Positions 11,706 through 33,141 of a stretch of DNA of 64,000 bases are shown here, piece after piece. Every line of letters starts with the position of its first letter. Positions within the stretch are counted from its first letter, which is position 1. Source of the DNA: an uncultured Verrucomicrobia subdivision 3 bacterium (GTDB lineage Bacteria; Verrucomicrobiota; Verrucomicrobiia; Limisphaerales; UBA11358); assembly GCA_903922735.1 (NCBI GenBank), contig CAIXUZ010000045.1, positions 44,412 to 108,411 of the forward strand. Direction: 5' to 3'. The notes under the pieces were generated by a model, which was not told where the DNA came from, did no database searches, and was given only the letters and a program-made list of their open reading frames with translations. A program made the translations under genes and the position numbers.

Positions 11706-14700
11706 TCAATAATACTGACGGATGTAGCCGTAGGCTTTGTCGAACAGTTCCTGGTCGGTGTGCAATTTGTATTTGAGCAGCGTGCGGCGTAGTTCTTTTT
11801 GCACGAGCCGCTCGCCGGCGTTGGTGCGCTGCCAGTCTGGGAAGCGCACTTTCTTCACGATGTCGTCAATGTCCGCGACGATGCGCTCGACGATGATGTG
11901 CGTGTTCTTGGATTTCACGTCCTTGAACAGCTCCGTGAGCGCTTCCTTGGCGCGATCGCGTTCTTCCTGCGGGTCGGCCTGCTTTTCCGCCTCCAGGACT
12001 TCCTTGGCCACTTCGAGGATTTCTTTCAGGAACTGGAGGCTGTTGAGAAAGCCTTGTTCGTGGCGTTCCTTGATTTTTTCCAAACGCTCGCCCAACGCAG
12101 TGAACTTGGGATTGCCAAGATGTTTCCGCAGCCGGGCGATGAGGCGGATTTCAATTTCACGGCCACGCTTGGCCGGATCGGCATCCTTCAAAATATCCTC
12201 CAACACCTGTGCGTCGAGCACCAGTGTCTCGACGTCGTCGCGCACGGATTCCAAGTGGACGTTCTGATTGATCAACTCCACCGTCTTGGCCCCCAGCGCG
12301 TGCCAGAGCAATCTGCCATTGCCGCTGACCGGTTTCACCGATTCATACACCGCCGTCAGCCAGCGGTAATCTTTTTCGTAGGGGCTGAGGCACGGGTCGG
12401 GCGACAGCGCTTCCCAGATGGTGCCCAACACGATGTAGTTGGCGGCGAATTTGTCGCGGACTTCGTTGTTGGGCAGGCATTGCTGCGCGGCCATGAGGCC
12501 CTCGTAACCGCCGACGCTGCGGTCCACATGCGGAAAAAAAGCCAGGCACTTCTGCACCTGCACTGGCAGCGCCTTGCGCAATTCCTCGATGTTGCTAACG
12601 ACCTGTTGCACGGCCTTTTCGTCGAAATCCAGCGCCTGCGCCACGTCATCGAAGATGCCGATGTAATCCACAATCAACCCGTGCGTCTTTTCCTGGCCAA
12701 ACGTGCGGTTCGTCCGACAGATCGCTTGTAGGAGGTTGTGATCCTTCATCGGTTTGTCGAGATACATCACCTGCAAAATCGGCGCGTCGAAGCCGGTAAG
12801 CAACTTACTCGTAACAATGACATATTTCAGCGGGTCCATCGGATCACGGAAACGGTCGAGCAATTTTTCCTCGGCATCTTTGTCACGCACATGCTGCTTC
12901 CATTCCAGCGGATCGTGCTGTGCGCCGGACATCACGATGGCGCTGGCCTCCGGGCCGATCAACTCATCCATGACGGCCTTGTAAAGTATGCAGCACTCGC
13001 GGTCAAACACCACCACCTGCGCCTTGAATCCGTTCGGTTCCACCTTGGTCTGGAAATGTTTGACGATGTGGTTCACCACCGCCTGGATGCGTTCCGGGTT
13101 TTTCACCAGAACGGCCATCTTGGCGGCGCGCTTGGCGAGGTCGTCGCGATCCTGCTCGCTCAACTCGCCGGTGATGGCTTTGTAGGCTTCGTCAATCGCC
13201 GCCCGGTCAATTTTCAACTTCACTTCCGGCGCTTCAAAATGCAGCGGCAGCGTGGCCTTATCGCGGATGGATTCCGAGAACGAATAGCGGCTCATGTAGC
13301 CTTTCTCGTCCTCGTTGGCCCCGAACGCCCAATAGGTATTACGGTCAGCGCGATTGATGGGCGTGCCGGTGAGACCGAACAGGAAGGCATTGGGCAGCGC
13401 CTCGCGCATCTTGCGACCGAGATCGCCTTCCTGCGTGCGATGCGCCTCGTCCACCATGACGATGATGTTGGAGCGAGTGTTGATGGCGCGGGAATTTCCT
13501 TTTGTGGTCACAGCCCCCTCACCCTGACCCTCTCCCCCGGTGGGGGCGAGGGAACCGGAATTATTGGTTTCGCCAAACTTGTGAATCGTGGTGATGAGCA
13601 CCTTACGCACGTCCTGCGCCAGCAACGTCTGCAACTCCTCTCGCGTGGCCACACCGACCATGTTCGGCACGTCCGCAGCATTGAAGGTGCCGGTGATTTG
13701 CGTGTCCAGGTCAATGCGGTCCACCACGATGATGACGGTGGGATTGCCGAGCTTGGGGTGCAGCCGCAGCTTTTGCGCGGCGAAGACCATGAGCAACGAT
13801 TTGCCGCTGCCTTGAAAATGCCAGATGAGGCCCTTCTTCGGCTGGCCTTTGATCACGCGCTCGACGATCTGGTTGACCGTGAAATACTGCTGGTAACGGC
13901 CGATGATTTTGATGCGGCGATGTTTCTTGTCCGTGGCGAACACGGTGAAATTTTGGAGGATGTCCAGCACCACGCCCGGCTGGAGCATGGATTCCACCGT
14001 GCGCCGCACGTCGGCCAGCGCACCTTCCGGCTCGTTCTCCCGCGTGCGCCACGGACCCCAGATGTCAATCGGCATCCGAATGGAGCCGTAGCGGAACAGC
14101 TTGCCCTCCGTGGCGAAGGAAAAGACGTTGGGCACGAACATGGCCGGCACCTGCTTCTCGTAAATCTCATTCACCTGATACGCGCCGTCGAACCACGTCA
14201 CCGCGCTACGCGTGGGCGTCTTGGCCTCGCCGATGACGATGGGCAATCCGTTGACCACGAACACCACGTCGAACCGCTTTTCCACGCTGCCGGCCTGATA
14301 AACCCATTGATTCGTGACCACGAGCTGGTTGCCGGCCGGGTTCGCAGTATCCACCAGACGCACGGGCACATGCTCGCCGTTGGGGCCGAAGGGCATCGTC
14401 TTCTCGCCGCGCAACCAATCCATGAAATTCTCGTTGGCCCGGACCAAGCCATCCGCCTGCACCGTGAGCAGAATCGCCCGCAGCGCATAAATAACCTCGT
14501 CGGCGCGGTCGGGCTGGTTGCCAATTTCGGGATTGAGCCGGATGAGGGCCAGACGCAACCACGGTTCCACCATCACGTCGCCGACCTGCCGGGGAACATC
14601 AGCGGCGGGAACAAACTCCCATTTGGCTGGGCGCAAGTCCCCGCCGAGCGATGCGCCCCAGCCGGGCGTTTCTTTCAACTCGAACGGCTGGCCGGTGGTG

Positions 14701-14759
14701 TCGGCGGACAGGGCATCGAGAATCATCTGCTCGACGGTGTTGGATTCGTTGAAGCTCAT
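11706..14759 (-). CDS. hsdR: Type I restriction enzyme HsdR (restriction and translocase subunit)
   Basis: 1017 aa, normal for HsdR. N-terminal nuclease domain of the PD-(D/E)xK type with RFDVVFVVNGLPIVIGEAKTP at about 163-185. SF2 translocase motifs follow: Walker A HFQGSGKS at about 315, DEAH in IIVMVDEAHRTQEGD at about 435, motif III LTGTPI, and RTNR in the second RecA fold. The C-terminal helical part binds the methylase. HsdR acts with HsdM and HsdS to cut unmodified DNA after translocation. Its ATG overlaps the hsdS stop by 4 nt (ATGA). Between the Walker A and DEAH motifs there is an unusual extra loop (about residues 395-425) encoded by a GC-rich palindromic repeat. The reading frame is intact, but the specificity subunit is broken, so the enzyme is probably idle. 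Confidence 0.95.
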   Translation of the reverse strand: MSFNESNTVEQMILDALSADTTGQPFELKETPGWGASLGGDLRPAKWEFVPAADVPRQVGDVMVEPWLRLALIRLNPEIGNQPDRADEVIYALRAILLTVQADGLVRANENFMDWLRGEKTMPFGPNGEHVPVRLVDTANPAGNQLVVTNQWVYQAGSVEKRFDVVFVVNGLPIVIGEAKTPTRSAVTWFDGAYQVNEIYEKQVPAMFVPNVFSFATEGKLFRYGSIRMPIDIWGPWRTRENEPEGALADVRRTVESMLQPGVVLDILQNFTVFATDKKHRRIKIIGRYQQYFTVNQIVERVIKGQPKKGLIWHFQGSGKSLLMVFAAQKLRLHPKLGNPTVIIVVDRIDLDTQITGTFNAADVPNMVGVATREELQTLLAQDVRKVLITTIHKFGETNNSGSLAPTGGEGQGEGAVTTKGNSRAINTRSNIIVMVDEAHRTQEGDLGRKMREALPNAFLFGLTGTPINRADRNTYWAFGANEDEKGYMSRYSFSESIRDKATLPLHFEAPEVKLKIDRAAIDEAYKAITGELSEQDRDDLAKRAAKMAVLVKNPERIQAVVNHIVKHFQTKVEPNGFKAQVVVFDRECCILYKAVMDELIGPEASAIVMSGAQHDPLEWKQHVRDKDAEEKLLDRFRDPMDPLKYVIVTSKLLTGFDAPILQVMYLDKPMKDHNLLQAICRTNRTFGQEKTHGLIVDYIGIFDDVAQALDFDEKAVQQVVSNIEELRKALPVQVQKCLAFFPHVDRSVGGYEGLMAAQQCLPNNEVRDKFAANYIVLGTIWEALSPDPCLSPYEKDYRWLTAVYESVKPVSGNGRLLWHALGAKTVELINQNVHLESVRDDVETLVLDAQVLEDILKDADPAKRGREIEIRLIARLRKHLGNPKFTALGERLEKIKERHEQGFLNSLQFLKEILEVAKEVLEAEKQADPQEERDRAKEALTELFKDVKSKNTHIIVERIVADIDDIVKKVRFPDWQRTNAGERLVQKELRRTLLKYKLHTDQELFDKAYGYIRQYY
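13514..13552. repeat. REP-like palindrome inserted in frame in hsdR
   Basis: CCCTC at 13516 pairs with GAGGG ending at 13552, and inside it CCCCC-GGT-GGGGG forms a perfect hairpin. The text ccctcaccctgaccctctcc resembles a dispersed intergenic repeat common in many bacterial genomes. Here it sits inside hsdR and is translated as a Gly/Glu/Pro-rich loop (LAPTGGEGQGEG) just before the DEAH motif. Confidence 0.75.
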
Positions 14760-15106
14760 ACTTCGCCTTTGGTAAACACTTCGTTAATTAAACAACTCCG
14801 AAGGTTGCGCTGTTCTGCAATATGTTTTGAAAGACTTGTTTGCGCTTCCGCAAGCGCCTGAAAGCGTAATTCCACTTCTGGCTGTTCTGATTCGACGGGT
14901 AAAGCGATGCGCTTTTCTAAAATGTTTCCACGGCTGATTCCTGGTATGAGGCCTTGAGCCTCCGCATTTAGTTGCGCCGAAAATGCGTGAAGAATTTTTA
15001 GAAGTAACACCCTGCTAATCTTTTGAGGGCGGACCGCCATTAATTGTCGGCTGATGCAATATTTTCTATCAGCGACAACAACTTTTCCCGTTCCACTTCC
15101 TTTACA
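14756..15106 (-). pseudogene. hsdS: hsdS, C-terminal fragment (cut off by ISL3-family insertion)
   Basis: The frame continues upstream of the annotated ATG (15040) as CKGSGTGKVVVADRKYCISRQL, which is the distal part of the second target-recognition domain, then MAVRPQKISRVLLLKILHAF and the terminal helix region (ELRFQALAEAQTSLSKHIAEQRNLRSCL) that dimerises and contacts HsdM. The frame meets a TGA just inside the insertion element. It joins the fragment at 16565-17400 across the 8-bp duplication to rebuild one continuous HsdS (VTCKG|SGTGK). The stop overlaps the hsdR start. Translation could restart at 15040, but a 94-aa product lacks both recognition domains. Confidence 0.9.
15099..15106. repeat. 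Target site duplication, left copy
   Basis: CCTTTACA, identical to 16565-16572. In hsdS it encodes part of CKG on the minus strand; both hsdS fragments end in it. Confidence 0.85.
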
Positions 15107-16564
15107 GGATATTCAGGGTTTTTCGTGGCTAGAAGTGAGAATAAATTGAGGCCATTTAGTTGACAACTTAAATGAGCGACGTGGTTTCAAATTGTCGGCT
15201 GGCTGGTTGGAGTTGGCGTGGATCGCTTTGCGCCGGCCATCGCTTCGCTCCGCTGCGCGCTGCCGGGCGGTCATTTGGGGTTGGCTTGGGACGTGGTGGT
15301 TGGCAGGCTTTTAGCATGAGCTTGGACAACGAATTACATAAACATTACGCGTTACTTTTGGGGATCGGCAGTCCGTGGGAGGTCAAAACCGTGGAGCTGA
15401 AACTGATGGAAAAGAAAGTGGAGATTGAACTGGGTTGGCAATGGGGATCTGATGCCAAATGCCCGGAATGTGGGTGTGAATGCTCGATTCACGACAGCGC
15501 GCCGGAGCGGACCTGGCGGCACTTGGACACCATGCAATTTACGACGTTGATTCGGGCGCGAACCCCGAGGGCGGAATGTCCGACCCACGGGGTCAAGACA
15601 ATGACGGTGCCGTGGGCGGTGCCGCAGGGACGGTTTACGCTTTTGTTCGAACGGTTTGCCGTGGAGGTGATGCTGGCCTGCGCGAGCGTGAGTCAGGCTT
15701 GCGAACTGTTGAGCATTGGCTGGGACGCCGCGCATGAGATTATGAAACGCGCTGTGGCGCGCGGATTGGAGCGGCGTCAACTGGAACAACTCAAGTATCT
15801 GGGAATGGATGAAAAGAGCTTCAAGCGTGGACATTCCTATATCACGCTGCTGACGGACTTGGAGGAATCACGCGTGCTGGAGGTGGTGGAAGAACGCACT
15901 TGCGCAGCGGCGGATCAGTTGTGGGCGACGCTCACACCAGAACAGAAGTCGGCGGTGGAAGCGGTGGCGGTGGATATGTGGGAACCGTTCATTCAGACGA
16001 TTGAAAAACAGGTGCCAGCAGCGGACATCGTGCATGACCGCTTTCACGTCAGCAAATACTTGAACGAGTCGGTGGACAAGGTGCGTCGGCAGGAACATAA
16101 GGAGTTGCTGGCCGAAGGCGATGAAACGCTCAAGGGGACACGGCAACTGTGGTTGTATAATCCGCAGCATTTTAGTCCGGAGCAACGGGATGAATTTTCC
16201 GGGCTAAAGGATCAGCAACTGAAAGTGGCGCGAGCTTGGGCGATGAAAGAACTGTTCAGCAAGTTCTGGGAATATCAGGAAGAGGGTTGGGCGCGACGGT
16301 TTTTTAAGGGCTGGTTTGGCTGGGTAAGCCGCAGCCAACTCAAACCCATGACGGACGTGGCTCACCTGCTCAAGCGGCATCTGGAAAACCTGCTGACGTA
16401 TTTGCGCCATCACATCACCAACGCCGTGACGGAAGGGTTGAACTCAAAGATCCAGAGCATCAAGTCGGCGGCTCGCGGCTTTCGCAACTTCAAGAATTAC
16501 CGGATACGTATCCTGTTTTTCTGCGGAAAGCTCGATCTTTATCCACTATGATGTTCGAAGAAAC
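15107..16564 (+). mobile_element. ISL3-family insertion sequence in hsdS
   Basis: A 1458-bp element bounded by identical 8-bp direct repeats CCTTTACA (15099-15106 and 16565-16572), the usual ISL3 target-duplication length. Removing the element and one repeat restores the hsdS frame, which fixes the ends. The outer ends are GGATATTCAGGGTTTTTCG (left) and, inverted, GTTTCTTCGAACATC (right); the terminal inverted repeats are weak, sharing mainly a GGGTTT(C)TTCG core that is offset between the ends. One transposase gene is carried, on the strand opposite to hsdS. Confidence 0.85.
15316..16551 (+). CDS. ISL3-family transposase
   Basis: 411 aa from ATG at 15316 (MSLDNELHKHYALLLGI). The ORF track starts earlier at 15172, but that extension is not family-like. 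N-terminal zinc finger: CPECGCECSIHD at about 55-70. DDE-type catalytic core: D in YLGMDEKSFKRG, D in IVHDRFHVSKYLN, E in NAVTEGLNSKIQ, then the terminal FKNYRIRILFFCG. Length and motif order match ISL3 transposases (DDE_Tnp_ISL3). The frame is intact, so the element may still be active. The stop lies 13 nt before the right end of the element. Confidence 0.95.
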   Translation: MSLDNELHKHYALLLGIGSPWEVKTVELKLMEKKVEIELGWQWGSDAKCPECGCECSIHDSAPERTWRHLDTMQFTTLIRARTPRAECPTHGVKTMTVPWAVPQGRFTLLFERFAVEVMLACASVSQACELLSIGWDAAHEIMKRAVARGLERRQLEQLKYLGMDEKSFKRGHSYITLLTDLEESRVLEVVEERTCAAADQLWATLTPEQKSAVEAVAVDMWEPFIQTIEKQVPAADIVHDRFHVSKYLNESVDKVRRQEHKELLAEGDETLKGTRQLWLYNPQHFSPEQRDEFSGLKDQQLKVARAWAMKELFSKFWEYQEEGWARRFFKGWFGWVSRSQLKPMTDVAHLLKRHLENLLTYLRHHITNAVTEGLNSKIQSIKSAARGFRNFKNYRIRILFFCGKLDLYPL

Positions 16565-16572
16565 CCTTTACA
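16565..16572. repeat. Target site duplication, right copy
   Basis: CCTTTACA, the second copy of the 8-bp duplication that flanks the ISL3-family element. Confidence 0.85.
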
Positions 16573-17316
16573 AGTTACGAGAACATCACCCTTTTCACAG
16601 CAGACCTTCGGAACAGTAGTGTAGCGGCTGATCTTGATTATTCCGTCGGGGAAATCCGCTGGGCCAGTTAGGTAAGGTGTGCCTTGAGGTTTCTCGCTGT
16701 AGTCTTTTGCATCGATATGTTGTCCACCAATCAGCACAACACAATCACCCAAACAAACGCTGTCACCGCCATTTTGAACCAGCAGGGCTTTTGACATTTG
16801 GAGGTCCAAAGCTTCGAGAGCGGTAAAAGCTGAAACCCATTTTTGCAGCGTTTCATCCACCGCCCAGAGGATTTCGGCGATGCGGCGCTGCTGGTCGAGC
16901 GGTGGGAGGTCGAACTCCTCCAGCTTGAGCGTTGTCCAGTTGATGGTGGGCGAGAGCGAGCCGACCGAAATGTCCACGGCGCGGTTCATGAACTTGTCGC
17001 TCATCATCAGGAACGGCAAAAAATCCGGCAGGATCACTTTGGGCTTGGCCCGCGCCACCATCGCGTGCGCCGAGCAAATGCCGTCCACTTCCGCCACCGC
17101 CAGCTTGCGCTGATACGCCCGGCGGCGTCCGAAAATCACGTCGCCTTTGCGGAAGCCGAGCTTGGTGCCGATGACATCGCTGCCCTTGCCCCACCGCCGG
17201 ATGTGCAGACTGCCGGAATCAAGATCATCCAGCCCCACATAAATTGCCTCCGCCGCCGTGCTCGGCTCCACGCGCTCATTCACATTCTCCACGATGTCGC
17301 CAAACCGCAAGCGGGA

Positions 17317-17352
17317 CCAGTTCTTGCGATTGAACAGCGGCAGCTTGGCCCA
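17317..17352. repeat. 36-bp direct repeat, copy in hsdS 5' end
   Basis: ccagttcttgcgattgaaca and the following 16 bases match 20464-20499 with one mismatch. It encodes WAKLPLFNRKNW near the HsdS N-terminus and flanks the PtuA/PtuB-like pair. Confidence 0.9.
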
Positions 17353-17399
17353 AGCGGGGTTGGGGTTCAAAGACGTTGATAATTCTTTTCCCATTTTCA

Positions 17400-18290
17400 T
17401 TAAATATCATCTGGCCTTAAATGTCCGCTGCGGATATGCCGGATTGTGTCGGCTAAATCTATTTTTGCTTTTTCATTGGTGGATAACCCATACAACAAAA
17501 AAGACTTCCAATTATTTACGGTTGTGAATTCTTTGTCACTTAACCAGAGAGCATAGTCTACGGCATCCGAAAATGTCTGATCTGTGAAATGTGCAGTTTC
17601 AAGACCACGAAAATAGACTTCATCTTTTCTCTGAAAATCAACCCACCACTTATCCATATCAATGAGCACTCTTGTTCTCATTAAAGTAACTTTATAATGG
17701 TAGTTCACTGCTGCATACAAGGGGTGCTGTTCGTGTATTAATATTTCTGTCGTTATTTTTGGCCGGCGATAATTTCCATTAGTGGCATTTATTTTTGCGG
17801 TGAAAAGCCTGTCTTCAACACGATCAAAATACGGATGCAATACACGTTCACCAGGCAGTGCCCCTAGATAGCTTTCTTGCCTGGCAGAATTGCATTTTAG
17901 ACATGCAGGAACTAGATTTTGGCTAAATATTGCAAGGTCTGGAAATTTACCTTGGGGGAAAATATGATCCACAGAGCCAAGCTCTGGAGCCCCGCACATT
18001 GGGCAAGCATTGATTTCCCGCGCAATGCGGATTTCCTCAATATAATCAAACAGGGCAGCTTTCGAGCCATATTTACTACCCAATGTATTTTGGAGTATTC
18101 CTTGCAGGGTTGTAGGTGTAGGCGCTATCGGGACGGCGGCATTTCCCTTGGCTAGTTGATACGCATGATAACGGCCGATGATTTCCGATTTGTCTGATCT
18201 CAAATGGGGACAAGATGCCAATGACGCATCTGCCGTAATCGTATTTAGTTTCGCTACATCATCAACTAATGGCAGCGGTAAACACCTCAT
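17400..18290 (-). CDS. HNH endonuclease, PtuB-like (Septu-type partner)
   Basis: 296 aa. The HNH/zinc core lies at about 95-135: CPMCGAPELGSVDHIFPQG, then QNLVPACLKCNSARQ, giving two CxxC pairs, the DH catalytic step and the Asn. This matches the HNH proteins (PtuB) paired with PtuA ATPases in Septu defence. The start overlaps the DUF4062-ATPase stop by 4 nt (ATGA), and its own stop overlaps hsdS (TAATG), so both are translationally coupled. The C-terminal half (about 150-296) is helical and unrecognised, making it longer than many PtuB proteins. Predicted role: nuclease effector released or activated by the ATPase during phage infection. Function is inferred from architecture and pairing. 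Confidence 0.8.
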   Translation of the reverse strand: MRCLPLPLVDDVAKLNTITADASLASCPHLRSDKSEIIGRYHAYQLAKGNAAVPIAPTPTTLQGILQNTLGSKYGSKAALFDYIEEIRIAREINACPMCGAPELGSVDHIFPQGKFPDLAIFSQNLVPACLKCNSARQESYLGALPGERVLHPYFDRVEDRLFTAKINATNGNYRRPKITTEILIHEQHPLYAAVNYHYKVTLMRTRVLIDMDKWWVDFQRKDEVYFRGLETAHFTDQTFSDAVDYALWLSDKEFTTVNNWKSFLLYGLSTNEKAKIDLADTIRHIRSGHLRPDDI

Positions 18291-20413: not shown

Positions 20414-20547
20414 TTAATCACCTCATAAATTCTATCCACCACATGCTCAAACCGCACCCGCGCCCAATTCTTGCGATTGAACAGCGGCAGCTTGGCCCAG
20501 TGGGGATTGGGCTGGAGGTTGGAAAATTTTGGAAGCGCAGTGGTCAT
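20410..20547 (-). pseudogene. hsdS 5' stub (45 codons), too short for the ORF track
   Basis: ATG at 20547 gives MTTALPKFSNLQPNPHWAKL and then PLFNRKNWARVRFEHVVDRI, ending YEVIK. It is clearly homologous to the start of the HsdS encoded at 17400 (NPNPAWAKLPLFNRKNWSRLRF). Its stop overlaps the DUF4062-ATPase start (ATGA) and its start overlaps the SANT gene stop (ATGA), so it bridges translation across the junction. I read it as the original 5' end of hsdS, left behind when the ATPase-HNH pair entered next to a second copy of the hsdS start. Confidence 0.85.
20464..20499. repeat. 36-bp direct repeat, copy in the hsdS stub
   Basis: ccaattcttgcgattgaaca and the following 16 bases match 17317-17352 with one mismatch, 3.1 kb apart in the same orientation. 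Recombination between the copies would remove the PtuA/PtuB-like pair and leave a full-length hsdS start. Confidence 0.9.
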
Positions 20548-21377: not shown

Positions 21378-21498
21378 AATTGGCCGCTGTTGATGCTGTT
21401 GTTGCCGTCGTCATCATCATCATCGTCGCCGTCATCGCCGTCATCACCGTCGCCGTCGTGAAGACGGGCGTCGTCGTGAAGATGGTGGTGGCGGTCAT
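21364..21498 (-). CDS. Low-complexity 44-codon ORF on a trinucleotide microsatellite
   Basis: ATG at 21498 overlaps the abiEii stop (ATGA); the ORF reads MTATTIFTTTPVFTTATVMT, continues with a Met4 run, ends STAANYERP, and overlaps the SANT gene start by 14 nt in another frame. The DNA is a degenerate array of ATG, ACG and GCG triplets. It may be only a translational bridge between abiEii and the SANT gene. Composition argues against a folded protein; the stop/start overlaps argue that ribosomes pass through it. Confidence 0.35.
   Translation of the reverse strand: MTATTIFTTTPVFTTATVMTAMTATMMMMTTATTASTAANYERP
21384..21494. repeat. Trinucleotide-rich microsatellite (GTC/ATC/GCC on plus)
   Basis: About 110 bp made almost entirely of gtc, atc, gcc and gtg triplets, including four consecutive atc. 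Such tracts change length by slippage. It fills the gap between abiEii and the SANT gene. Confidence 0.8.
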
Positions 21499-22349
21499 AC
21501 GGTTAAGGCTTTTTGCAGCAAGCGTGCCGCGTTCACCATCTCTTGCTGGATTTGGAGACGTTGAATGCGGATGTCCCCAAGTTCGTTTGGCTTGGCCGGG
21601 CCGGGAAAGAATTGAGCCGCCTTCACGGGAGCGAGCGAAGTTTCCGAATTAAAGTGTTTCTCCAAGCAACGAAGTGCGTCGGGACAGGCGGGATTGCCGG
21701 CGCGCAGTTCCTCGCCAAACGCGGCGACGGCGGCGTTCGTGCCACGGTCGTAATTGAGCAAGGTGTAGAGAATATCAAAAGCATCCTTGCCCTCCTCGCG
21801 GTCAAAAAAAGCGCGCAGTTTCATGGCGAGGAAAGTCCCGACTTCGGAAACTCGGACGACGGCAGTTTGCGGCTTGCCGGCGAGGTCCATACCCGTAACC
21901 GTCATCGTGCGGGCGGTTTTTAGGGCGCGGTTGATGCCGGGCAGAACACTGGCGACGATGTCATCAACGATTACGCTGCCGCGAGTATTCGGCGGGGCGT
22001 CGGTCAGGAAATCAATCGGGATGGAATAATCGCCAATCTTCTGCTCATACCTGATCAGGCCTTCCGGACTGGTGGTTTTTTGAAAGCCTTTTTCCAGCAG
22101 TGCGAATTGCATACTGGACATCCCACCGGCTGAGGCGCCGAGCGCCACGCCCATGTCGGCATCAATCGTCACCGGCCTTGGAAGCAGGCGCGGGGCAGAA
22201 ATATCCCCGCAGATGTAGCGTGGCACCAAGCCGCCGACGAGCACAAGGTCCTCATGCCACGGTTCAAGATTTGGCCAGATGGTCAGCAGGGCGCTTTCAG
22301 TCAGCCCGACCTGTCGGGAATCATATTCGGTGTAACTCCCATTTTTCAT
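21495..22349 (-). CDS. abiEii: AbiEii-type nucleotidyltransferase toxin (type IV TA / abortive infection)
   Basis: 284 aa from ATG at 22349 (MKNGSYTEYDSRQVGLTESA), which overlaps the abiEi stop by 4 nt; the 395-aa track ORF is over-extended. Nucleotidyltransferase motif at about 35-70: LVLVGGLVPRY then RPVTIDADMGVAL with the DxD pair. The second conserved patch at about 195-225 is FLAMKLRAFFDREEGKDAFDIL (K, R and KD/FD). AbiEii toxins transfer nucleotides to targets such as tRNA acceptor ends, causing growth arrest on infection. The GG motif and DxD are intact, so it is probably active. It is followed directly by the microsatellite ORF. Confidence 0.88.
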   Translation of the reverse strand: MKNGSYTEYDSRQVGLTESALLTIWPNLEPWHEDLVLVGGLVPRYICGDISAPRLLPRPVTIDADMGVALGASAGGMSSMQFALLEKGFQKTTSPEGLIRYEQKIGDYSIPIDFLTDAPPNTRGSVIVDDIVASVLPGINRALKTARTMTVTGMDLAGKPQTAVVRVSEVGTFLAMKLRAFFDREEGKDAFDILYTLLNYDRGTNAAVAAFGEELRAGNPACPDALRCLEKHFNSETSLAPVKAAQFFPGPAKPNELGDIRIQRLQIQQEMVNAARLLQKALTV

Positions 22350-23410
22350 TTGCGGCAAAATCCTTCCCAATGGCGCAGGGCGTTGGCGGCATCCGGGCCG
22401 CGCAGGCCGGTCCCGAGCAGATCGAGATAAATCTGGGCATCGGTGACGAGCGGCAAGTCCCGCACGGTTTGCGTTTCCAGAAATACACCTTCGTCCGTGG
22501 GCACAAAGAGCCAGACTTTGCCCGCGTCGTTCACGGGTCGCAGGCCGAGTTGCTCCAACGTGGCGGCTTCCGGGAGGCGGGCCACGTAGGCGCTGGTGAT
22601 AACCGGCTCGGTGTAAGGATGCCGCAACCAGGCGGCGAGCCATTGAGTGAACGCGATGGGGACGGATTGTTCCCGGGCCCAAGTCTGGAGCTTCTTGGCG
22701 ATTTCAAGGGTGTCACCGCCGAAGGTGGTATAGCGGGTGTGAGTGCTGCGGCGGTGGAAATCATCGGCTTTGGCCCAGGCATTGATCAAACCCGGATGAT
22801 CCACGAGCCGGAATTCGCGGGCACTTTGTTTTTCCAGAAAACCCTGACTGATGAGGTGCTGGACGATGCGGGAGACCAGACCGGAGCTGGCCTTGGTGCG
22901 ATGAAGCAGTTCACTCTGCGTCCAGATCCGGTCGCGGTCGGTGAGCAGGCTGCGGATGATGCTGGCACTTTTGCCCACGAAAACATTCCTCGGCTCAAGC
23001 TCATACCGGAAGTCGCGTCCGGGCAGACTGCGGCGATCCACGAGCAAGCCTTCGGCCCGCAGATACACCCGGCCATTCAAATCCACCGCCGCCAGCCGCT
23101 TTAGCCGGCAAAACTCCAGCAGGCGGGGAATCAACTCGGGGGCAACCAACAGCGGCGGGATCGGATCATTCCAAGCCGCGAGGATGGATTCCAACTCCGG
23201 AATGCTGGGTTTCAGGGAATACACGGGCTTGAATCGGCGGGCTTTGGCGTCCAGCTTTACCTCGACCCACGGCAGTTTGCCTTGGGCGACATCGCCAGGC
23301 GGCGCAAGCCAAGCGAGTTCCACGTCATCCGCCAGCAATTGCCGGAAGTGATGAAGCAACTCGCTTTCGTAGCGAATGAGTGCGATTTTACTGAAATCTA
23401 ATGTTTTCAC
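22346..23410 (-). CDS. abiEi: AbiEi-type antitoxin with winged-helix DNA-binding region
   Basis: 354 aa, at the large end for AbiEi proteins. The region at about 125-190 looks like a winged helix (SIIRSLLTDRDRIWTQSELLHRTKASSGLVSRIVQHL), typical of the AbiEi DNA-binding domain, and the C-terminal part (about 200-354) contains the YTTFGGDTLEIAKKL and LRHPYTEPVITSAYVARLP segments. AbiEi represses its own operon and neutralises AbiEii without direct binding. Here it is first in a coupled abiEi-abiEii pair and is preceded by repeated TTCAGTAA sites. It lies between hsdM2 and the rest of the restriction locus, so it is nested in that operon. Confidence 0.8.
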   Translation of the reverse strand: MKTLDFSKIALIRYESELLHHFRQLLADDVELAWLAPPGDVAQGKLPWVEVKLDAKARRFKPVYSLKPSIPELESILAAWNDPIPPLLVAPELIPRLLEFCRLKRLAAVDLNGRVYLRAEGLLVDRRSLPGRDFRYELEPRNVFVGKSASIIRSLLTDRDRIWTQSELLHRTKASSGLVSRIVQHLISQGFLEKQSAREFRLVDHPGLINAWAKADDFHRRSTHTRYTTFGGDTLEIAKKLQTWAREQSVPIAFTQWLAAWLRHPYTEPVITSAYVARLPEAATLEQLGLRPVNDAGKVWLFVPTDEGVFLETQTVRDLPLVTDAQIYLDLLGTGLRGPDAANALRHWEGFCRK

Positions 23411-23506: not shown

Positions 23507-25006
23507 TTATTTGGTTTTTATCGTGATTCCGAGTGTTTCCATCGACTGGCGCACGGTGGTTGAACTTTTTAACCAATGGCTGAGCGAGGTAGCGAGGTCG
23601 GTGGTCGCGACTGGTGCCGAATCAGCATCCGCCCCACCATTGGTGGCGGGCGCGACGTAAAGCGGGATGCTCAAGTTGCCGTCTTTGGCGCGAACTTCCG
23701 CCAGCGTGACGACGCGGGCAAAGCCGGGAGCGTCCGCGAATTTCTCGTAGGTTTGGACGATGCGCTCAATGTGGTCGTCGGTGAGAAAACTCTGAGCGCG
23801 TTCGCGGGTGGCTTCATTGACGGCGTTGATGAGCAGGATTTTTCCCCGGCGCGCCTTGGGCTTGGTGGTGCGGCAGATGACGACGCACGCCTCCATCGGC
23901 GAGTTGTAAAACAGATTCGGGCCGAGGCCGAGGACACATTCGATGAGGTCGGCTTCGATGAGTTTGCGCCGCATGTCGGCTTCCTCCTGCCGGAACAAAA
24001 CGCCGTGCGGCCAGAGCACCGCGCAACGGCCGGTCTTGGGGTTAAGGCTCTGCATGATGTGTTGCTGAAAGGCGTAGTCGGCGCGACCTTGCGGCGGTGT
24101 GCCGTAAAGATTGCGGCCCCAAGGGTCGGAGGCGAACGCTTCGCGATCCCATTGCTTGATGGAATACGGCGGATTGGCCAGCACCACGTCGAACTGCTGG
24201 AGGCGGTCGCCTGACACAAATTTCGGCTCGGACAGCGTATCGCCGCGTTCAATCCGGAAATCCTCGATGCCGTGCAGGAAGCAATTCATCCGGGCGATGG
24301 ATGAGGTCATCAAGTTCCGCTCCTGCCCGTAGAGCCGGACGTTGCGCCATTCTTTTTTCAGCCGGCGCAGGTGAGTGATGCACGAGAGCAACATGCCACC
24401 GGAGCCGCACGTCGGATCGTAAACGGATTCACCGGGCTGCACGTCGAGCATCTCGGTCATGAGATGGACGACGGTGCGGTTGGTGTAAAACTCAGCGGCG
24501 GTGTGGCCGGCGTCGTCGGCAAATTTCTTGATGAGATATTCGTAGCCCTGGCCGAGTTCGTCCTCCGGCAGATTGGCGACGGTCAATTCCAGCGTGCTGA
24601 AATGCTCCACCAGGTCGCGCAGCATGGCATCCGATAGCCGGTCTTTGTTGGTCCATTGGGCGTCGCCGAAGATGCCGTAGAGTTTGTCCGGGTTGGCCGT
24701 CTCAATGGTGCGCATGGCGGACTGCAATGCGGCGCCGACGTTTTTGGCCGCCGACCGCACCTCACGCCAATGAGCCTCCGCCGGAATCTGGAAACGGTGC
24801 TGCTCACGCCCGGAGGCGTAGCGTTTGTCACCGCCGGATTCCGCCAGCGCGGCCTGCGTCTCTTCATCGAACACATCGCAGACGCGCTTGTAAAACAGGA
24901 GCGGGAAGATGAACTGCTTGTAATCGCCGGCATCAATGGTCCCGCGCAGGAGCGTGGCCGCGCCCCAGAGATAGGATTCAAGCTGTTGTTGGGAGATGCG
25001 GATCAT
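23507..25006 (-). CDS. hsdM: Type I restriction-modification methyltransferase HsdM, second copy
   Basis: 499 aa from ATG at 25006 (MIRISQQQLESYLWGAATLL), which overlaps the upstream stop (ATGA); the track's earlier start is not supported. N-terminal helical HsdM_N region, then the SAM-binding motif VYDPTCGSGGMLL at about 205 and the N6-adenine catalytic motif VVLANPPYSIKQWD at about 285. EFYTNRTVVHLM precedes motif I as in other HsdM. It methylates adenine in the target set by HsdS. It is clearly related to, but not identical with, the other HsdM at 28262; this one has NPPY, the other NPPF. No hsdS of its own is seen. Confidence 0.93.
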   Translation of the reverse strand: MIRISQQQLESYLWGAATLLRGTIDAGDYKQFIFPLLFYKRVCDVFDEETQAALAESGGDKRYASGREQHRFQIPAEAHWREVRSAAKNVGAALQSAMRTIETANPDKLYGIFGDAQWTNKDRLSDAMLRDLVEHFSTLELTVANLPEDELGQGYEYLIKKFADDAGHTAAEFYTNRTVVHLMTEMLDVQPGESVYDPTCGSGGMLLSCITHLRRLKKEWRNVRLYGQERNLMTSSIARMNCFLHGIEDFRIERGDTLSEPKFVSGDRLQQFDVVLANPPYSIKQWDREAFASDPWGRNLYGTPPQGRADYAFQQHIMQSLNPKTGRCAVLWPHGVLFRQEEADMRRKLIEADLIECVLGLGPNLFYNSPMEACVVICRTTKPKARRGKILLINAVNEATRERAQSFLTDDHIERIVQTYEKFADAPGFARVVTLAEVRAKDGNLSIPLYVAPATNGGADADSAPVATTDLATSLSHWLKSSTTVRQSMETLGITIKTK

Positions 25007-25620
25007 TTGAGGTCGTATGCTCCCACTGTCCACACCAAGAAATCGCATAGGCGAGTCGGGTGGCAATTTTTCAGAGCTGGGTTCTTTTTAAACAGCGGCT
25101 GTGTGATTTTGGCAAAGCGGGGATTGGCCGACCATGCCTCGTATTGGGACTTAATGTTTTGCAGATTGGCAACGAATCCCGCAATTCGAAATTCAATGGA
25201 ACCGATCGAGGGCGGGGAAAAACCAAAAAAGTTCTTAACGTGGACATCGTAAAGCGGACGCGATTCGTCGTGGAACGCCACCAACTTGGAAACGAAGGAC
25301 ACCTGTAGAGCACGATCACCTTTACGGCGGGGAAATTTGTAGAGTTCCAACAATAATGGCGTGTAGGGGTCACGCCGGCCACGGGGTTTGCAGGTTAGTA
25401 ACAATTCCAGATAGCGACGCTTGAAGGCGTCGGTCAGCCCTCCAATATGCAGACGATAGTAATTGGCAAACCGGGATTGTAATTCCCGGCGGGATGCTGG
25501 GTCGGCTTTTTGATTCAGGCGCTTGAGTTCGAAATACTCTTTGAAATCCGTCGGACGGATAGTGGCCACTGCTTGGGAAAGCAGTTTCCAGTGGAGGCTA
25601 TGGTTGCAAATACTGGTCAT
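25003..25620 (-). CDS. Hypothetical 205-aa protein coupled to the DUF262 and hsdM2 genes
   Basis: 205 aa, basic, predicted mostly alpha-helical, with the segments TDAFKRRYLELLLTCKPRGRR, FVSKLVAFHDESRPLYDVHV and NFFGFSPPSIGSIEFRIAG. I do not recognise a family. It overlaps the DUF262 gene stop by 4 nt at its start, and its stop overlaps hsdM2 by 4 nt. This tight coupling implies that it is made in fixed proportion with them, for example as a partner of the DUF262 nuclease. Confidence 0.7.
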   Translation of the reverse strand: MTSICNHSLHWKLLSQAVATIRPTDFKEYFELKRLNQKADPASRRELQSRFANYYRLHIGGLTDAFKRRYLELLLTCKPRGRRDPYTPLLLELYKFPRRKGDRALQVSFVSKLVAFHDESRPLYDVHVKNFFGFSPPSIGSIEFRIAGFVANLQNIKSQYEAWSANPRFAKITQPLFKKNPALKNCHPTRLCDFLVWTVGAYDLK

Positions 25621-28253
25621 GTTGTCGAAACAGCTTTTGTTGCCCGAATCGCGTCAATTGCTTCGGCCATGTCTTGGGGAATCCTGTAAGCGGTTCCACG
25701 AAACGGATGGTATCTGTTCATTTTTGCCTTTATCTCCGAAGCTTTTACGGCCTGGTCCCAAGAGCTTGGCGCGTCGAGTTTCCACTCCATATTCAAAGGC
25801 ACAAAGAATTCCTCGTCCGGATCGTTTTCACAGGCTGTTTTTTGGCAGGCTGAGGTAGTCTTGCCTTTGGCAATAATTCCGACGCTGGTTTGAAATAGGT
25901 AAACAACAGAGCCTTCGGGGATTTTGGCGACACTGTGTTTGCGATCGTAATAAGCCGAAGCCTTGGAAGCAGAAAGCATATCACGCCAGGCATCGGGGCT
26001 GTGGCGGGAGTTGGTGTTGACGATGTAAAAACCCGATTCGCCTTCGCCATGGGCCTCCAGTTCGGCGTCCCCTGGTTCAGATTGGTCGGGAAACTCGGTG
26101 ACTTTGGTGCGCCCCGCGAAACTGGCGAATAGATTCTCGTAACCGTGCAAAACTTTGGACACGGACTCACTGTCGAGTTCCCGCCAGCCATCCTTGCCGA
26201 TGGCGTTTGCCGCATCGGAAACGGACACCGGATAAAACTCGGCGATGGCTTCCGCGCTCAGATAAACTTTCAGTTGTTTGCGCACCGGTTTGGTCCAGAC
26301 CGTGAAAAGCATCCGGTTGCGTGATTTGGGCGGCGTGAACATGACGCTGGTTTTCCAGAGTCTAGGATACAACCCAAGCTGGAGTCCAAGCGCGCAGAAG
26401 CGGCGGAAGTCGGGGCCGATCTCCGCCGCATCGGCCTGCTGGCAAACTGCTTCCACCGAGGCCGCCACATCCGCACTGGCAATAATCGGAGTGCTGGTGA
26501 CGGCTTCAAAAAAATCTTTTAGCGGGATTTCAGTTTCTCCCGTTTCGAGGCCAAGAAACGTCTCTACCTGCCTTTTAATATAAGTTGCCCGAGCGGATTC
26601 GAATTGGAGATAGTTATCCCTATTCCACTCGGAAAGAGTCTTTTTGTAAGCAGCGGCAACATCAGGATCGTTGACCCCGACGAAATCTGTCTGAGCATCT
26701 GGCCAACTGTCGAGCTTGCGCCGGTTAATTGGCAGGACGACCAAACGGAAGTTGCCAATGCGATCGGCGACATCGCCCATGCTCGACTTGCGAAGCCGGC
26801 TCCGTGGGAAAATATGATCGACCTCCAGTTTCAAATCCTTGGGATGAATTTGCGGATCGTGCGGATTAATCTGAAGCTGCCCGCCTTGAACAATGTTGAG
26901 CATCAAATCAGGGTCGTCATTGAAAAAGCGTTCCTGAAGTCCGTATTGGGAATTGGTCCGGTCGGCAATCACGGCTTTGATATAATCCAAGGGGAAATCC
27001 GCAGATTGCGGTGGAATGCCCTTATCTTTGTCGCCGTTAATCGAAAGGACGAGCTGTTTGTGGATCTTATCCAACACGGCATCGCCTGCCCGCCCAAAGA
27101 GGCGGGTAAAAAAGGCCATGTGCAAATATTGTTTCATGGCCTGACTATTTTGGCCGTCAGGTTTTTCGTGCCGCCCGGAAAGGAGCATGTAGTCTATCAA
27201 CGGAATCAGAGCCGAACGGCTGGGCAGGAAGCGTTCGCACTTGATCAAGGCGGTCTCATCCAACCATGCCACAATCTGGCGCAGGCACTTGTCCAAACCC
27301 GCGTATTTGGTGCGCAGGTTCCCAATATAATCCTCATCTTTCAGCTTCTTGACGTCGTATTTCGCGCCTTTTCCGAAAACCACCAGCGAGGTCTTGATGA
27401 TGAAATCAGTGTCAAAGGCATAACGGCTCCCATGATTGATGGCCGCCAGCGTCCCCCGGAACTCGGCTTCTTTTTCTTTTAACTTCAGCTTGAGAGTGGA
27501 GAACAGGAGATCGGATTTACTCAACACCATGCCACCGCTGTTGACACGCTCGAAAATCTCAAGCACATGGTCATACGTCTGACGAGAGCTGACTTCCTGA
27601 AGCAGGAGGGCCGGGTAAATATTGAAACGATCGATGAACCGGTCGATATTACGGGCGATTCTTTTGCGTTTATCCGCTTCAACCCGCTGGCGCTCGGCCG
27701 GGTCGGCAATATCTTTGGCCAATTTTTGCGCCAAATCTTCGGTAAACTCGGACTTGGTGTCAGCATCGAGCTTAACAATTTCTGCAAGGGCCAACATCTG
27801 CGGTTGCTGCCGGGCCTCGTCGGGTGTCAAAAACGGAAATTCGTAATCATCATCGTCAGCCTGCGAGGAAGGCAGATGGTCGATGGCCATGTAAACGCGC
27901 GTGCCGTCGTAGCTGCCAAAAAAGCTCAGATAGAGAGATTGAAGCCGCTGCTGGCCATCGAGAACCAGATACGCCTCGGCATCTGAAGCATGGGCGGCAT
28001 CGGTTAGGTAATCTTGATCGGAACGGAAATCCGCTATGAATCTGCGGTCGCTGATGTCGGATTGAATTTCCGGGGTCGGCTTCCACACCATGATGGCCCC
28101 GATGGGGTAACCATTCATAATGGAATCCAGCAACTTCGCGATGCGCGGTTTATTCCACTCGAAGCCGCGCTGAATATTCGGGATGCGGTAAGCGCCGCGA
28201 TGAATTTCATTCATCACGTCGAAAATTCTTTGATTAGGATTCAAGCTCGCCAT
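25617..28253 (-). CDS. DUF262-HNH nuclease with C-terminal EVE/PUA-like module (GmrSD/BrxU-like candidate)
   Basis: 878 aa. DUF262 domain at about 10-250: IQRGFEWNKPRIAKLLDSIM, YLVLDGQQRLQSLYL (the DGQQR ParB-like motif). A DUF1524-type HNH nuclease at about 475-530 has LEVDHIFPRSRLRKSS and NRIGNFRLVVLP-like text. Residues about 640-735 (KQLKVYLSAEAIAEFYPVS) are unassigned. Residues about 738-870 resemble an EVE/PUA-fold reader: FYIVNTNSRHSPDAWRDML, SVAKIPEGSVVYLFQTSVGI, IAKGKTT. DUF262+DUF1524 proteins are type IV modification-dependent enzymes (GmrSD, BrxU); EVE-like folds bind modified bases. The combination suggests cleavage of modified phage DNA. The reader call is from sequence pattern only. 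Confidence 0.78.
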   Translation of the reverse strand: MASLNPNQRIFDVMNEIHRGAYRIPNIQRGFEWNKPRIAKLLDSIMNGYPIGAIMVWKPTPEIQSDISDRRFIADFRSDQDYLTDAAHASDAEAYLVLDGQQRLQSLYLSFFGSYDGTRVYMAIDHLPSSQADDDDYEFPFLTPDEARQQPQMLALAEIVKLDADTKSEFTEDLAQKLAKDIADPAERQRVEADKRKRIARNIDRFIDRFNIYPALLLQEVSSRQTYDHVLEIFERVNSGGMVLSKSDLLFSTLKLKLKEKEAEFRGTLAAINHGSRYAFDTDFIIKTSLVVFGKGAKYDVKKLKDEDYIGNLRTKYAGLDKCLRQIVAWLDETALIKCERFLPSRSALIPLIDYMLLSGRHEKPDGQNSQAMKQYLHMAFFTRLFGRAGDAVLDKIHKQLVLSINGDKDKGIPPQSADFPLDYIKAVIADRTNSQYGLQERFFNDDPDLMLNIVQGGQLQINPHDPQIHPKDLKLEVDHIFPRSRLRKSSMGDVADRIGNFRLVVLPINRRKLDSWPDAQTDFVGVNDPDVAAAYKKTLSEWNRDNYLQFESARATYIKRQVETFLGLETGETEIPLKDFFEAVTSTPIIASADVAASVEAVCQQADAAEIGPDFRRFCALGLQLGLYPRLWKTSVMFTPPKSRNRMLFTVWTKPVRKQLKVYLSAEAIAEFYPVSVSDAANAIGKDGWRELDSESVSKVLHGYENLFASFAGRTKVTEFPDQSEPGDAELEAHGEGESGFYIVNTNSRHSPDAWRDMLSASKASAYYDRKHSVAKIPEGSVVYLFQTSVGIIAKGKTTSACQKTACENDPDEEFFVPLNMEWKLDAPSSWDQAVKASEIKAKMNRYHPFRGTAYRIPQDMAEAIDAIRATKAVSTT

Positions 28254-28261: not shown

Positions 28262-29761
28262 CTATTTGAATAGTCCTTCGCGCTGTAAAATGGCGATGAG
28301 TTTATCCTCCGCTGCGAATGCGGCCGTGGCGCTGGTCCGCAACTGCTTCATCGCCGCATCCACGGTCAGCACGACCTGGTCGTTTTGGGGTTCGACGTAG
28401 CGCGGGATGTTAAGGTTGTGGTCGTTGGCGGCGATTTCGTCCAGCGTGACGACGCGGGCGATGCCGGCGACGTCCGAGTATTTCCGATACCACTGGAAGA
28501 TGCGCTCGACGTGTTCGGGTAGCAATTCGTTCTGGGCCCGGCCGGTCCTGAACTCCTTGGAGGCGTCCACGATGAGCACCTTGTACTTCCGGTCCTTGGC
28601 CTTGCGCTGGCGGAAGACGAGGATGCAGGCGGCGAGGCCGGTGCCATAAAACAGGTTCGGGCCGAGGCCGATGACGGCTTCGAGCAGGTCCATGCCGAGA
28701 ATCTTTTCCCGAATCTCGCCTTCCTTGCCCATGCGGAACAGTGCGCCGTGCGGCAGCACCACGGCCATGCGCCCAGTCTTGGCAGCCATGCTTTTGATCA
28801 TGTGCTGCACCCAGGCATAATCGCCGCTCTTGCCCGGCGGCATCCCGGCAAAATTTCGCCCGTAAGGATCGCTGGTCCACACTTCCTCGCCCCACTTTTC
28901 CAGCGAGAACGGCGGGTTGGCGATGACGCAATCAAATGTGGCCAGACTGTCACCCAGAAAAAACGCCGGGCTGCGGAGCGTGTCGCCGCGCACAACCTGG
29001 AAATCCGAAGCGCCATGCAGGAACAGATTCATGCGGGCGATGGCGGAGGTGGTGAGGTTCTTCTCCTGCGCGAAGAGTTTACCCCAGAGGGTGCGGTCGT
29101 CACCGTGGTTCTCCTTCACATGCTGGATGGCTTCAATCAGCATACCGCCGGTGCCACAGGTAGGATCGTAAATGGATTCACCGGCCTTGGGGTCGAGGAT
29201 GTTCACCATCAACCGCACCACGGTGCGCGGGGTGTAAAACTCGCCGGCCTTTTTATTCGTGGCGTCGGCGAATTTTTTGATCAGGTATTCGTAGGACTGG
29301 CCGAGGATGTCTGCTTGGGCGGCCTGGTTGCCAAGATTGATCCGGGAGAAATGTTCGATAAGGTCGCGCAGCAGAGAATCCGGCAGGCGATCTTTGTTGG
29401 TCCAGGAGGCATCGCCGAAAATGCCGTAGAGGGTTTCGGGGTTGGCTTTCTCTATCCCGCGCATGGCCCGCTGTAAGGCCTGGCCGACATTGCTCGCCAC
29501 CGTGCGCACGTCTTCCCAATGGCAATCATCGGGAATCTGGAAGCGAAAATTCTGCGGGAACTTGGCGTATTCCTCATCGCCGCCGGATTCCGTCAGCGCC
29601 GCTTGATATTCCTCATCATGCACATCGGAGATGCGCTTGAAGAAGAGCAGCGGGAAAACGTAGGTCTTGAAATCCGCGGCGTCCACCGGCCCGCGCAGGA
29701 TGTTGGCCGACTCCCACAGATGGGATTCGAGCTGCGACAGGGTGACGGCGGCGGTGGTCAT
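28262..29761 (-). CDS. hsdM: Type I restriction-modification methyltransferase HsdM, first copy
   Basis: 499 aa from ATG at 29761 (MTTAAVTLSQLESHLWESAN); the longer track start is unlikely. HsdM_N helical domain, then EFYTPRTVVRLM, SAM motif IYDPTCGTGGMLIEA at about 205 and catalytic FDCVIANPPFSLEKW at about 285. It is the first gene of the island, 8 nt before the DUF262 gene. It shares length and layout with the HsdM at 23507 but differs throughout, so the two are old paralogues or came from two systems. Which of them works with the HsdS/HsdR downstream is not decidable by eye. Confidence 0.93.
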   Translation of the reverse strand: MTTAAVTLSQLESHLWESANILRGPVDAADFKTYVFPLLFFKRISDVHDEEYQAALTESGGDEEYAKFPQNFRFQIPDDCHWEDVRTVASNVGQALQRAMRGIEKANPETLYGIFGDASWTNKDRLPDSLLRDLIEHFSRINLGNQAAQADILGQSYEYLIKKFADATNKKAGEFYTPRTVVRLMVNILDPKAGESIYDPTCGTGGMLIEAIQHVKENHGDDRTLWGKLFAQEKNLTTSAIARMNLFLHGASDFQVVRGDTLRSPAFFLGDSLATFDCVIANPPFSLEKWGEEVWTSDPYGRNFAGMPPGKSGDYAWVQHMIKSMAAKTGRMAVVLPHGALFRMGKEGEIREKILGMDLLEAVIGLGPNLFYGTGLAACILVFRQRKAKDRKYKVLIVDASKEFRTGRAQNELLPEHVERIFQWYRKYSDVAGIARVVTLDEIAANDHNLNIPRYVEPQNDQVVLTVDAAMKQLRTSATAAFAAEDKLIAILQREGLFK

Positions 29762-29876
29762 GCCATTATCCCAAGGTTCCGCAGGAGGTGGTTGGCGCAA
29801 ACTTGGCGGCGTCGCCGCAAGCCCGATGCGATGGTGGTGGAATTCAGACGCATAACCCGAGCGGGAGTTTTATGTG

Positions 29877-30530: not shown

Positions 30531-30567
30531 CCTCGAATGTTCTGCGTTCGAGTTGTTTGCTTTAGAG

Positions 30568-30613
30568 CCGTCAGAGGCAATGATTTTTGTTCTGCAAAAG
30601 GAGTCTCTGACGG
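30568..30613. promoter_or_regulatory. 9-bp inverted repeat upstream of the 139-aa gene
   Basis: CCGTCAGAG (30568-30576) and CTCTGACGG (30605-30613) are perfect inverted repeats 28 nt apart, 44 nt before the start at 30657. It could be an operator or a leader hairpin. Confidence 0.45.
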
Positions 30614-30656
30614 TTCACAGCAGATAATTCAGTCTGCACCAACAAAAGGTTCTTCC

Positions 30657-31076
30657 ATGCAACTCGTCCAAAATAATCCACAAGTCCAATCCAGCATTGC
30701 TGCGCTCCCCGTCGGCTTTCTCATCACCAAGACTGGCACCACTGGCCGGCAAGTGATGAAACCGATGCCGCGCTCCGAGTTCCGCAAGCAACACGGTTAC
30801 GGCAACGCAGAGGCGAAGCGCCTTTACGGGGTGCACCTGCAAAAGTTCACGGCGGCGATCTCGGCGGACTTCGCAGCGCAAGTGGCGATGGGCAAGGTGG
30901 CGCGAGAAATCAGCGTCGGCGTGTCCGGCCTCCGCACCTACAAGGTTGGCGAGATCAAAGCGGCTCCGGCGGCGAAACAAATTCCGGCCAGCCAGGAGGA
31001 CTTGGAAGCGGCGCTGGCGCTGAAACTCGGCATGAAGGTCGAGGATTTGCGCGGCATGATTGCGCTGACGAAATAA
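30657..31076 (+). CDS. Hypothetical protein, first gene of the mobile module
   Basis: 139 aa from ATG at 30657 (MQLVQNNPQVQSSIAALPVG), with AAAAGG 8 nt upstream; the ORF track starts 40 codons earlier without a site. Lys/Ala-rich, with MPRSEFRKQHGYGNAEAKRL and a helical C-terminus (SQEDLEAALALKLGMKVEDL). I do not recognise a family. It opens a co-directional set of genes that ends in an integrase. Confidence 0.6.
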   Translation: MQLVQNNPQVQSSIAALPVGFLITKTGTTGRQVMKPMPRSEFRKQHGYGNAEAKRLYGVHLQKFTAAISADFAAQVAMGKVAREISVGVSGLRTYKVGEIKAAPAAKQIPASQEDLEAALALKLGMKVEDLRGMIALTK

Positions 31077-31253
31077 TCGCCACCCGATTTGGGCGGCCAG
31101 CAGGTGAATAATGCACGGGCACGACGGACAGCGGATTTATCCGCCCCCCTGACGCCGCAGTGTGCTGCTGGTCGCTCTCTGCATTTTTCACCCCGTCACA
31201 GCTTCTTTTCCCGACCGCAGAGTTCAACCACTGCGTTCGGCAAAGGAACCACA

Positions 31254-31742
31254 ATGACTATATGGCGAACCAAACTGCGCGGCTCCGAGTTCAAATTGAC
31301 GCGCTTTAACGACGCACTGCCCTCGGGCAGTGCGCTGGACAATCCTGAACGGCTCGTGGATTACTTGCGGTCTAATCTGGCGGAGAGCGTGATCTACCGG
31401 CCCGACGTGGAAAACTTCATCGTCGTGCACCTCAACACGCGGCGCAACGCCATCGGATTGGAAATCGTCAGCACCGGCACGCTGGACACCCTGCTCGTTC
31501 ATGCTCGCGAGGTGTTCAAATCCGCCATCGTGACCAACGCTTCGGCGATTGCGTTGGCACACAACCATCCGAGCGGCGATCCGTCCCCATCGGAAGCGGA
31601 CATCAAGGTGACACGCGATCTGATCCGGGCCGGTCAACTCTTGAAGATTGAAGTGCTCGACCACGTTGTTCTCGGCCAGATCACGCCCGAACGTCTGAAA
31701 GGCTGGGCGAGCCTTCGTGAATTGGGCTTCTTCTATTCCTAA
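31254..31742 (+). CDS. RadC-like JAB-domain protein
   Basis: 162 aa from ATG at 31254 (MTIWRTKLRGSEFKLTRFND), preceded by AAAGGA 7 nt upstream; the track start at 31089 is too early. The MPN/JAB motif lies at about 98-115: ALAHNHPSGDPSPSEADIKV, with His-x-His and Ser-x(7)-Asp metal ligands. The N-terminal HhH region of full-length RadC is missing, as in the short RadC copies found on plasmids and islands (anti-restriction or YeeS-like proteins). The cellular role of RadC is unsettled. Confidence 0.9.
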   Translation: MTIWRTKLRGSEFKLTRFNDALPSGSALDNPERLVDYLRSNLAESVIYRPDVENFIVVHLNTRRNAIGLEIVSTGTLDTLLVHAREVFKSAIVTNASAIALAHNHPSGDPSPSEADIKVTRDLIRAGQLLKIEVLDHVVLGQITPERLKGWASLRELGFFYS

Positions 31743-31748
31743 AAAATC

Positions 31749-33140: not shown

Positions 33141-33141
33141 T

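Follow-up and report, generated by a model that had tools for sequence, protein, structure and literature searches.

What an 878-residue protein that joins a GmrSD-like nuclease to an additional C-terminal domain does inside a type I restriction operon, and whether that domain reads modified bases, are the questions raised by this locus. It is found in a 64,000-nucleotide stretch of DNA, hereafter the window, from an uncultured Verrucomicrobia subdivision 3 bacterium. The initial annotation had described a DUF262-HNH nuclease with a C-terminal EVE/PUA-like reader, and we examined each part of this description in turn.

Architecture of the Fusion Protein

The fusion gene (25617..28253, minus strand) starts with ATG and encodes 878 aa, in which a DUF262 domain, an HNH nuclease, an unassigned segment and an EVE-type domain follow one another. 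The DUF262/GmrSD_N NTPase domain (residues 11-254; 27492..28223, minus strand) is delimited by Pfam (GmrSD_N, E 3.7e-32), by the alignment of relatives and by BrxU (7p9k), the only PDB sequence match of the protein (residues 12-297, E 1.9e-19). The HNH core (about residues 468-515; 26709..26852, minus strand) is placed by invariant columns and by the GmrD motif; according to Machnicka et al. (PMC4619093), the signatures of the family are DGQQR in GmrS and E/D-H-N-N in GmrD. We aligned the fusion protein with five DUF262-HNH relatives from plasmids (545-581 aa), all of which stop at the start of its extra 300 residues; in the six sequences, DGQQR (residues 99-103), D43-S44, D479, H480, P483, N501, N510 and K513 are invariant. 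The LLDS motif (41-44) occupies the RLFDS position, and D479-H480, at the beginning of VDHIFPRSRL (478-487), form with N501 and N510 the E/D-H-N-N pattern of GmrSD catalytic residues.

The two GmrSD/BrxU-like halves of the initial annotation, thus, stand: its two motifs, the GmrSD_N domain and the BrxU match all agree. The nuclease half deserves a closer reading: Pfam DUF1524 (PF07510) has no match in the protein and HNH_4 only a weak one (E 0.022, below cut-off), so the GmrD half is divergent. Judged by its sequence, the protein belongs to the GmrSD family if this is taken broadly, as DUF262 plus HNH, and is not a canonical DUF262-DUF1524 enzyme. In PADLOC, residues 5-567 match HEC-05 (E 9.4e-74), a model for a candidate defence protein with DUF262; HEC-05 models are 566-621 residues long, with no room for the C-terminal 300.

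Between the HNH nuclease and the EVE-type domain lies a middle segment of ~160 aa (about residues 575-735; 26049..26531, minus strand), for which we found neither a Pfam match up to E 10 nor a plasmid relative with E < 1. A presumed likeness to DUF5655 found no support and was dropped; a single-sequence AlphaFold2 model of residues 575-878 (pLDDT 34.5) was discarded.

The C-Terminal Domain Is Predicted to Be of EVE Type

For the domain predicted as an EVE-type (PUA-superfamily) reader (residues 740-878; 25620..26036, minus strand), Pfam returned no match, and PHROGs and NCBIfam gave no name to the C-terminus. Its relatives were found by tblastn on plasmids and by a DNA-pattern scan that added members in beta- and gammaproteobacterial genomes. 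Pfam EVE matches 3 of the 13 members of this family, EVE being the top family (best E 0.0018); a member checked against the curated cut-off of Pfam EVE (PF01878) stayed below it, with 17.6 against 23 bits. The close relative of VcaM4I, a solved EVE-HNH modification-dependent restriction enzyme, likewise has no Pfam EVE match.

Profile comparisons were made with canonical EVE proteins and with the EVE domains of real EVE-HNH endonucleases taken from plasmids; the latter were searched for with a consensus, which served solely to find real sequences, and the comparisons rest on these. A Photobacterium EVE-HNH protein matches VcaM4I (6yex) with E 1.8e-93, and the residue numbering in this match agrees with the published pocket residues Q10, T11, E15, W22 and P24. 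Against the EVE domains of the EVE-HNH enzymes, the score of the window family is 49.1 (probability 94%), and against canonical EVE proteins it is 45.3 (probability 93%); with 100 column shuffles for each comparison, the maxima are 20.4 and 20.9, respectively, and reversed alignments reach 17.1 and 11.5. By comparison, the EVE domains of EVE-HNH enzymes and canonical EVE proteins, both of them accepted groups, score just 24.9 against each other. Leaving the window sequence out of its own family profile gives nearly the same scores.

An AlphaFold2 model of residues 737-878 built from nine sequences, with relatives taken from the related-loci search only (mean pLDDT 77.2, pTM 0.76), has an EVE-like succession of strand-helix-strand-helix followed by four strands. 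Foldseek against the PDB ranks 2p5d (MJECL36, UPF0310/EVE) first, with E 1.1e-5, and VcaM4I (6yex) second, with E 1.8e-5; below come YTH domains and the EVE proteins 2gbs, 2hd9 and 1zce, the YTH domains fitting the model nearly as well as EVE does. YTH domains are N6-methyladenine binders, and YTH and EVE domains are able to bind differing bases, or RNA. Taken from the model, and also from the profile comparison and the relatives' Pfam matches, the C-terminal 130-140 residues are assigned to the EVE type. The initial annotation had named another fold at the C-terminus as the result that would speak against it; AlphaFold2 and Foldseek returned an EVE-type fold, and its EVE/PUA-like reading is upheld by the EVE/YTH matches, by profiles with shuffled controls and by Pfam EVE in three of the 13 relatives.

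One has to keep in mind that a fold does not give a ligand. The EVE domain of VcaM4I flips 5mC and 5hmC, with Q10 and T11 contacting the base (PMC7897488). In the profile alignment of VcaM4I to the fusion protein, T11 faces R750, E15 faces D754, W22 faces S760, W82 faces P812 and P24 falls in a gap; none of the pocket residues T11, W22, P24, W82 and Y130 has an identical counterpart. Within the family itself, T747, N748, M759, K772, G792 and A795 are invariant in the 13 sequences, N746 is kept in 12 of them, and position 768 is F or Y in all. The motif N746-T747-N748, kept in nearly all relatives, closes the first strand, close to the positions at which Q10 and T11 of VcaM4I contact the base. 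A base-binding role is, thus, plausible by the modelled fold, and the base that would be read cannot be named because the individual residues of the VcaM4I pocket are not kept here.

The Fusion Gene Lies within an Interrupted Type I Operon

Machnicka et al. (PMC4619093) found that, among defence systems, it is type I that occurs most often next to GmrSD genes. Here, transcription on the minus strand runs through hsdM1, the fusion gene, a gene for a 205-aa protein, hsdM2, AbiE-like genes, an HTH gene, genes for an AAA ATPase and an HNH protein matching PADLOC PDC-M01A/B, hsdS and hsdR; with hsdM1, hsdM2, hsdS and hsdR around it, the fusion gene does sit inside a type I operon, as the initial annotation had it. 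The gene hsdM1 (28262..29800, minus strand; Pfam N6_Mtase, E 1.1e-99) is listed with a TTG start, an internal ATG being likelier, and the fusion gene begins 8 bp downstream of it. The 205-aa protein (25003..25620, minus strand) is of no known family, and its gene shares ATGA overlaps with the fusion gene and with hsdM2 (23507..25006, minus strand), whose start lies in that overlap. HsdM1 and HsdM2 are 54% identical. The GC content is 0.52 for the fusion gene and 0.50 for the 205-aa gene, against 0.59-0.60 for hsdM1, hsdM2 and hsdR, a difference that fits a later-acquired cassette.

At the other end of the operon, hsdS is split by the gene of an ISL3-family transposase (15172..16551, plus strand; Pfam DDE_Tnp_ISL3, E 3.1e-78). 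Its 5' part (16546..17400, minus strand; 284 aa) matches Pfam Methylase_S and PADLOC Specificity_I, and the minus-strand frame beyond the transposase ends in an apparent HsdS C-terminus; this 3' part, read from the translation (14756..15000, minus strand, upstream limit approximate), has its stop overlapping the start of hsdR (11706..14759, minus strand; NCBIfam TIGR00348, E 2e-149). We searched for terminal inverted repeats that would fix the exact ends of the insertion sequence and found none. As hsdS is split, the type I system is probably inactive here, barring a truncated HsdS acting as a half-subunit. This bears on the earlier idea that the fusion protein complements the type I system: the interruption of hsdS weakens it in this genome, and the complementation picture may suit the ancestral operon better.

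Other features of the window are worth recording. Immediately before the AAA-HNH (PDC-M01-like) cassette stands a stub, some 43 codons long and similar to the HsdS N-terminus, and a 90-bp repeat (77%) links 20422-20511 to 17275-17364; the stub at this cassette and the duplicated hsdM around that of the fusion gene suggest that accessory cassettes arrived with their own flanking hsd sequence. The operon also holds an AbiEi/AbiEii-like pair (21495-23410), both weak Pfam matches. Outside it, a plus-strand block at 30537-37399 with RadC, AAA ATPases and a tyrosine recombinase is possibly a mobile element, and 1464-9998 encodes a repetitive, probably secreted protein of 2844 aa.

Relatives of the Putative Reader and Rarity of the Fusion

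Most relatives of the C-terminal domain are proteins of ~200 aa (loci L003, L004, L007, L008, L009 and L012-L018) in which the EVE-type domain follows an N-terminus of 70 residues that looks ribbon-helix-helix-like by eye; PHROGs gave these proteins a weak Arc-like match only. On cryptic enterobacterial plasmids of 2.7-2.9 kb, such a gene is one among few annotated genes. In genome G553 (locus L027, 1438-2478), a 347-aa protein has a NucS-like N-terminus ahead of a C-terminal EVE-type domain; with a D...ExK pattern and a Pfam NucS_C match that stays under the cut-off (E 0.005), it is a candidate PD-(D/E)XK-EVE fusion.

The fusion in the window had no companion in our samples. The C-terminal 304 residues gave no confirmed match in genome contigs with exact 8-residue patterns and no other match by BLAST in 387 genomes of the same phylum. 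The EVE profile matched none of 288 other genomes of the window's phylum; in the class of genome G388, it had matches in 3 of 369 genomes, the three ORFs (202, 210 and 367 aa) not being DUF262 proteins; by this profile, no DUF262-EVE fusion besides that of the window was found in samples of 289 genomes of the phylum and 369 of that class. DUF262 itself is common (104/241 genomes in the window's phylum, 64/229 in the class of G388). Among plasmid and phage records, none spans 80% of the fusion protein, and viral scans with the relatives' domains gave no match or chance matches (L019-L021). As a close relative was not found, conservation of the whole fusion cannot be demonstrated. Bell et al. 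2020 (PMC7641849) mention rare fusions of EVE to GmrSD homologs; the absence of further fusions in the sampled genomes fits the rarity given there, and the EVE-GmrSD fusion is a kind already known since 2020, of which the window protein is a further variant.

Proposed Function and Alternatives

We consider it probable that the fusion protein is an NTP-dependent restriction enzyme of the GmrSD family, with the EVE domain serving to read modified bases on incoming DNA. This reading starts from the architecture, catalytic signatures, EVE-type fold and operon context described above, and it takes BrxU as its analog for NTP hydrolysis and cleavage of modified DNA and VcaM4I for base recognition. 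The DUF262 half would bind and hydrolyse NTP, the HNH half would cut DNA, and the terminal EVE domain would flip and hold a modified base on incoming DNA, thereby directing or licensing the cut. Housed as a cassette in the type I operon, it would provide accessory, modification-dependent (type IV) restriction of phages with modified DNA that evades type I cutting; BrxU, which cuts 5mC, 5hmC and glucosyl-5hmC DNA, complements BREX (PMC8565348). Also in favour of this reading, another genome has the same EVE-type domain family joined to a NucS-like PD-(D/E)XK candidate.

Modified cytosines are recognised by BrxU, which has no such domain (PMC8565348), and since a GmrSD core can do so unaided, the extra domain may serve another purpose: recognition could reside in the core, while the EVE domain, no longer a base reader, would anchor the protein to DNA in general or serve a structural role. 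The missing VcaM4I pocket residues agree with this; however, the persistence of N746-T747-N748 next to the expected base contacts, the invariance of M759 and K772 and the constant F/Y at 768 argue against a domain freed from base reading, and we regard such a loss as doubtful. The reader could also face inwards, as in SspE, by reading a self mark laid by the neighbouring HsdM that would switch the nuclease on or off. The fusion gene follows hsdM1 by 8 bp and is translationally coupled towards hsdM2, and YTH domains, as N6-methyladenine binders, are among the top folds. Moreover, SspE (DUF262-DUF1524) relies on phosphorothioate (PT) modification of host DNA (PMC9646914). Yet with hsdS interrupted, a type I mark is probably no longer made by this operon, the profile comparison points to the EVE domains of EVE-HNH enzymes, readers of 5mC/5hmC on invading DNA, as the nearest functional relatives, and accessory GmrSD genes are common in type I loci (PMC4619093); a self mark is, thus, unlikely. 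Its specific form, a GmrSD nuclease gated SspE-like by the mark of the adjacent type I methyltransferase, with base methylation replacing phosphorothioation, is quite unlikely; were such gating true, the type I operon would be coupled to a second effector.

A further alternative, in which modified RNA or some other ligand is bound by the EVE domain and the protein serves abortive infection instead of restricting DNA, we hold to be very unlikely: the AbiE-like pair shares the operon and EVE relatives are found in toxin-antitoxin settings, according to Bell et al. 2020 (PMC7641849), but the fused catalytic parts are of the DNA-restriction type (GmrSD) and the closest EVE relatives read DNA.

Comparison with Known Systems

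Like BrxU and GmrSD (type IV, DUF262-DUF1524), the fusion protein carries the DUF262 DGQQR followed by the HNH D-H-N-N in a single polypeptide encoded in a defence island; unlike them, it continues at the C-terminus for 300 more residues, which include an EVE-type domain, and has no Pfam DUF1524 match. With VcaM4I it shares an EVE-type reader and an HNH cutter in one chain, the EVE domains being alike in fold and profile; in contrast, the EVE domain of VcaM4I is N-terminal and directly linked to the HNH, without an NTPase half, the HNH family differs (HNH_2 is matched in the VcaM4I relative), and so do the base-pocket residues. The general architecture is shared with the EVE-GmrSD fusions that Bell et al. 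2020 (PMC7641849) call rare. RloF and further GmrSD homologues from type I loci are likewise encoded within an hsd operon, but the extra domains reported there are DUF4268, DUF4357 and DNA_binding_1, not EVE (PMC4619093). Unlike SspE, whose models match the fusion protein weakly and at residues 10-49 only, it has no sspABCD phosphorothioation genes among the neighbours examined.

As the window copy of this EVE subfamily has no Pfam match, other defence proteins may carry readers of this sort that go unnoticed. In the BrxU structure, its authors could make out no obvious pocket (PMC8565348). The fusion would offer a naturally occurring enzyme of the GmrSD type in which the reader is separable, has a known fold and could be deleted, mutated or moved to see whether specificity follows, and would, thus, permit a direct test of how the large GmrSD family finds its targets.
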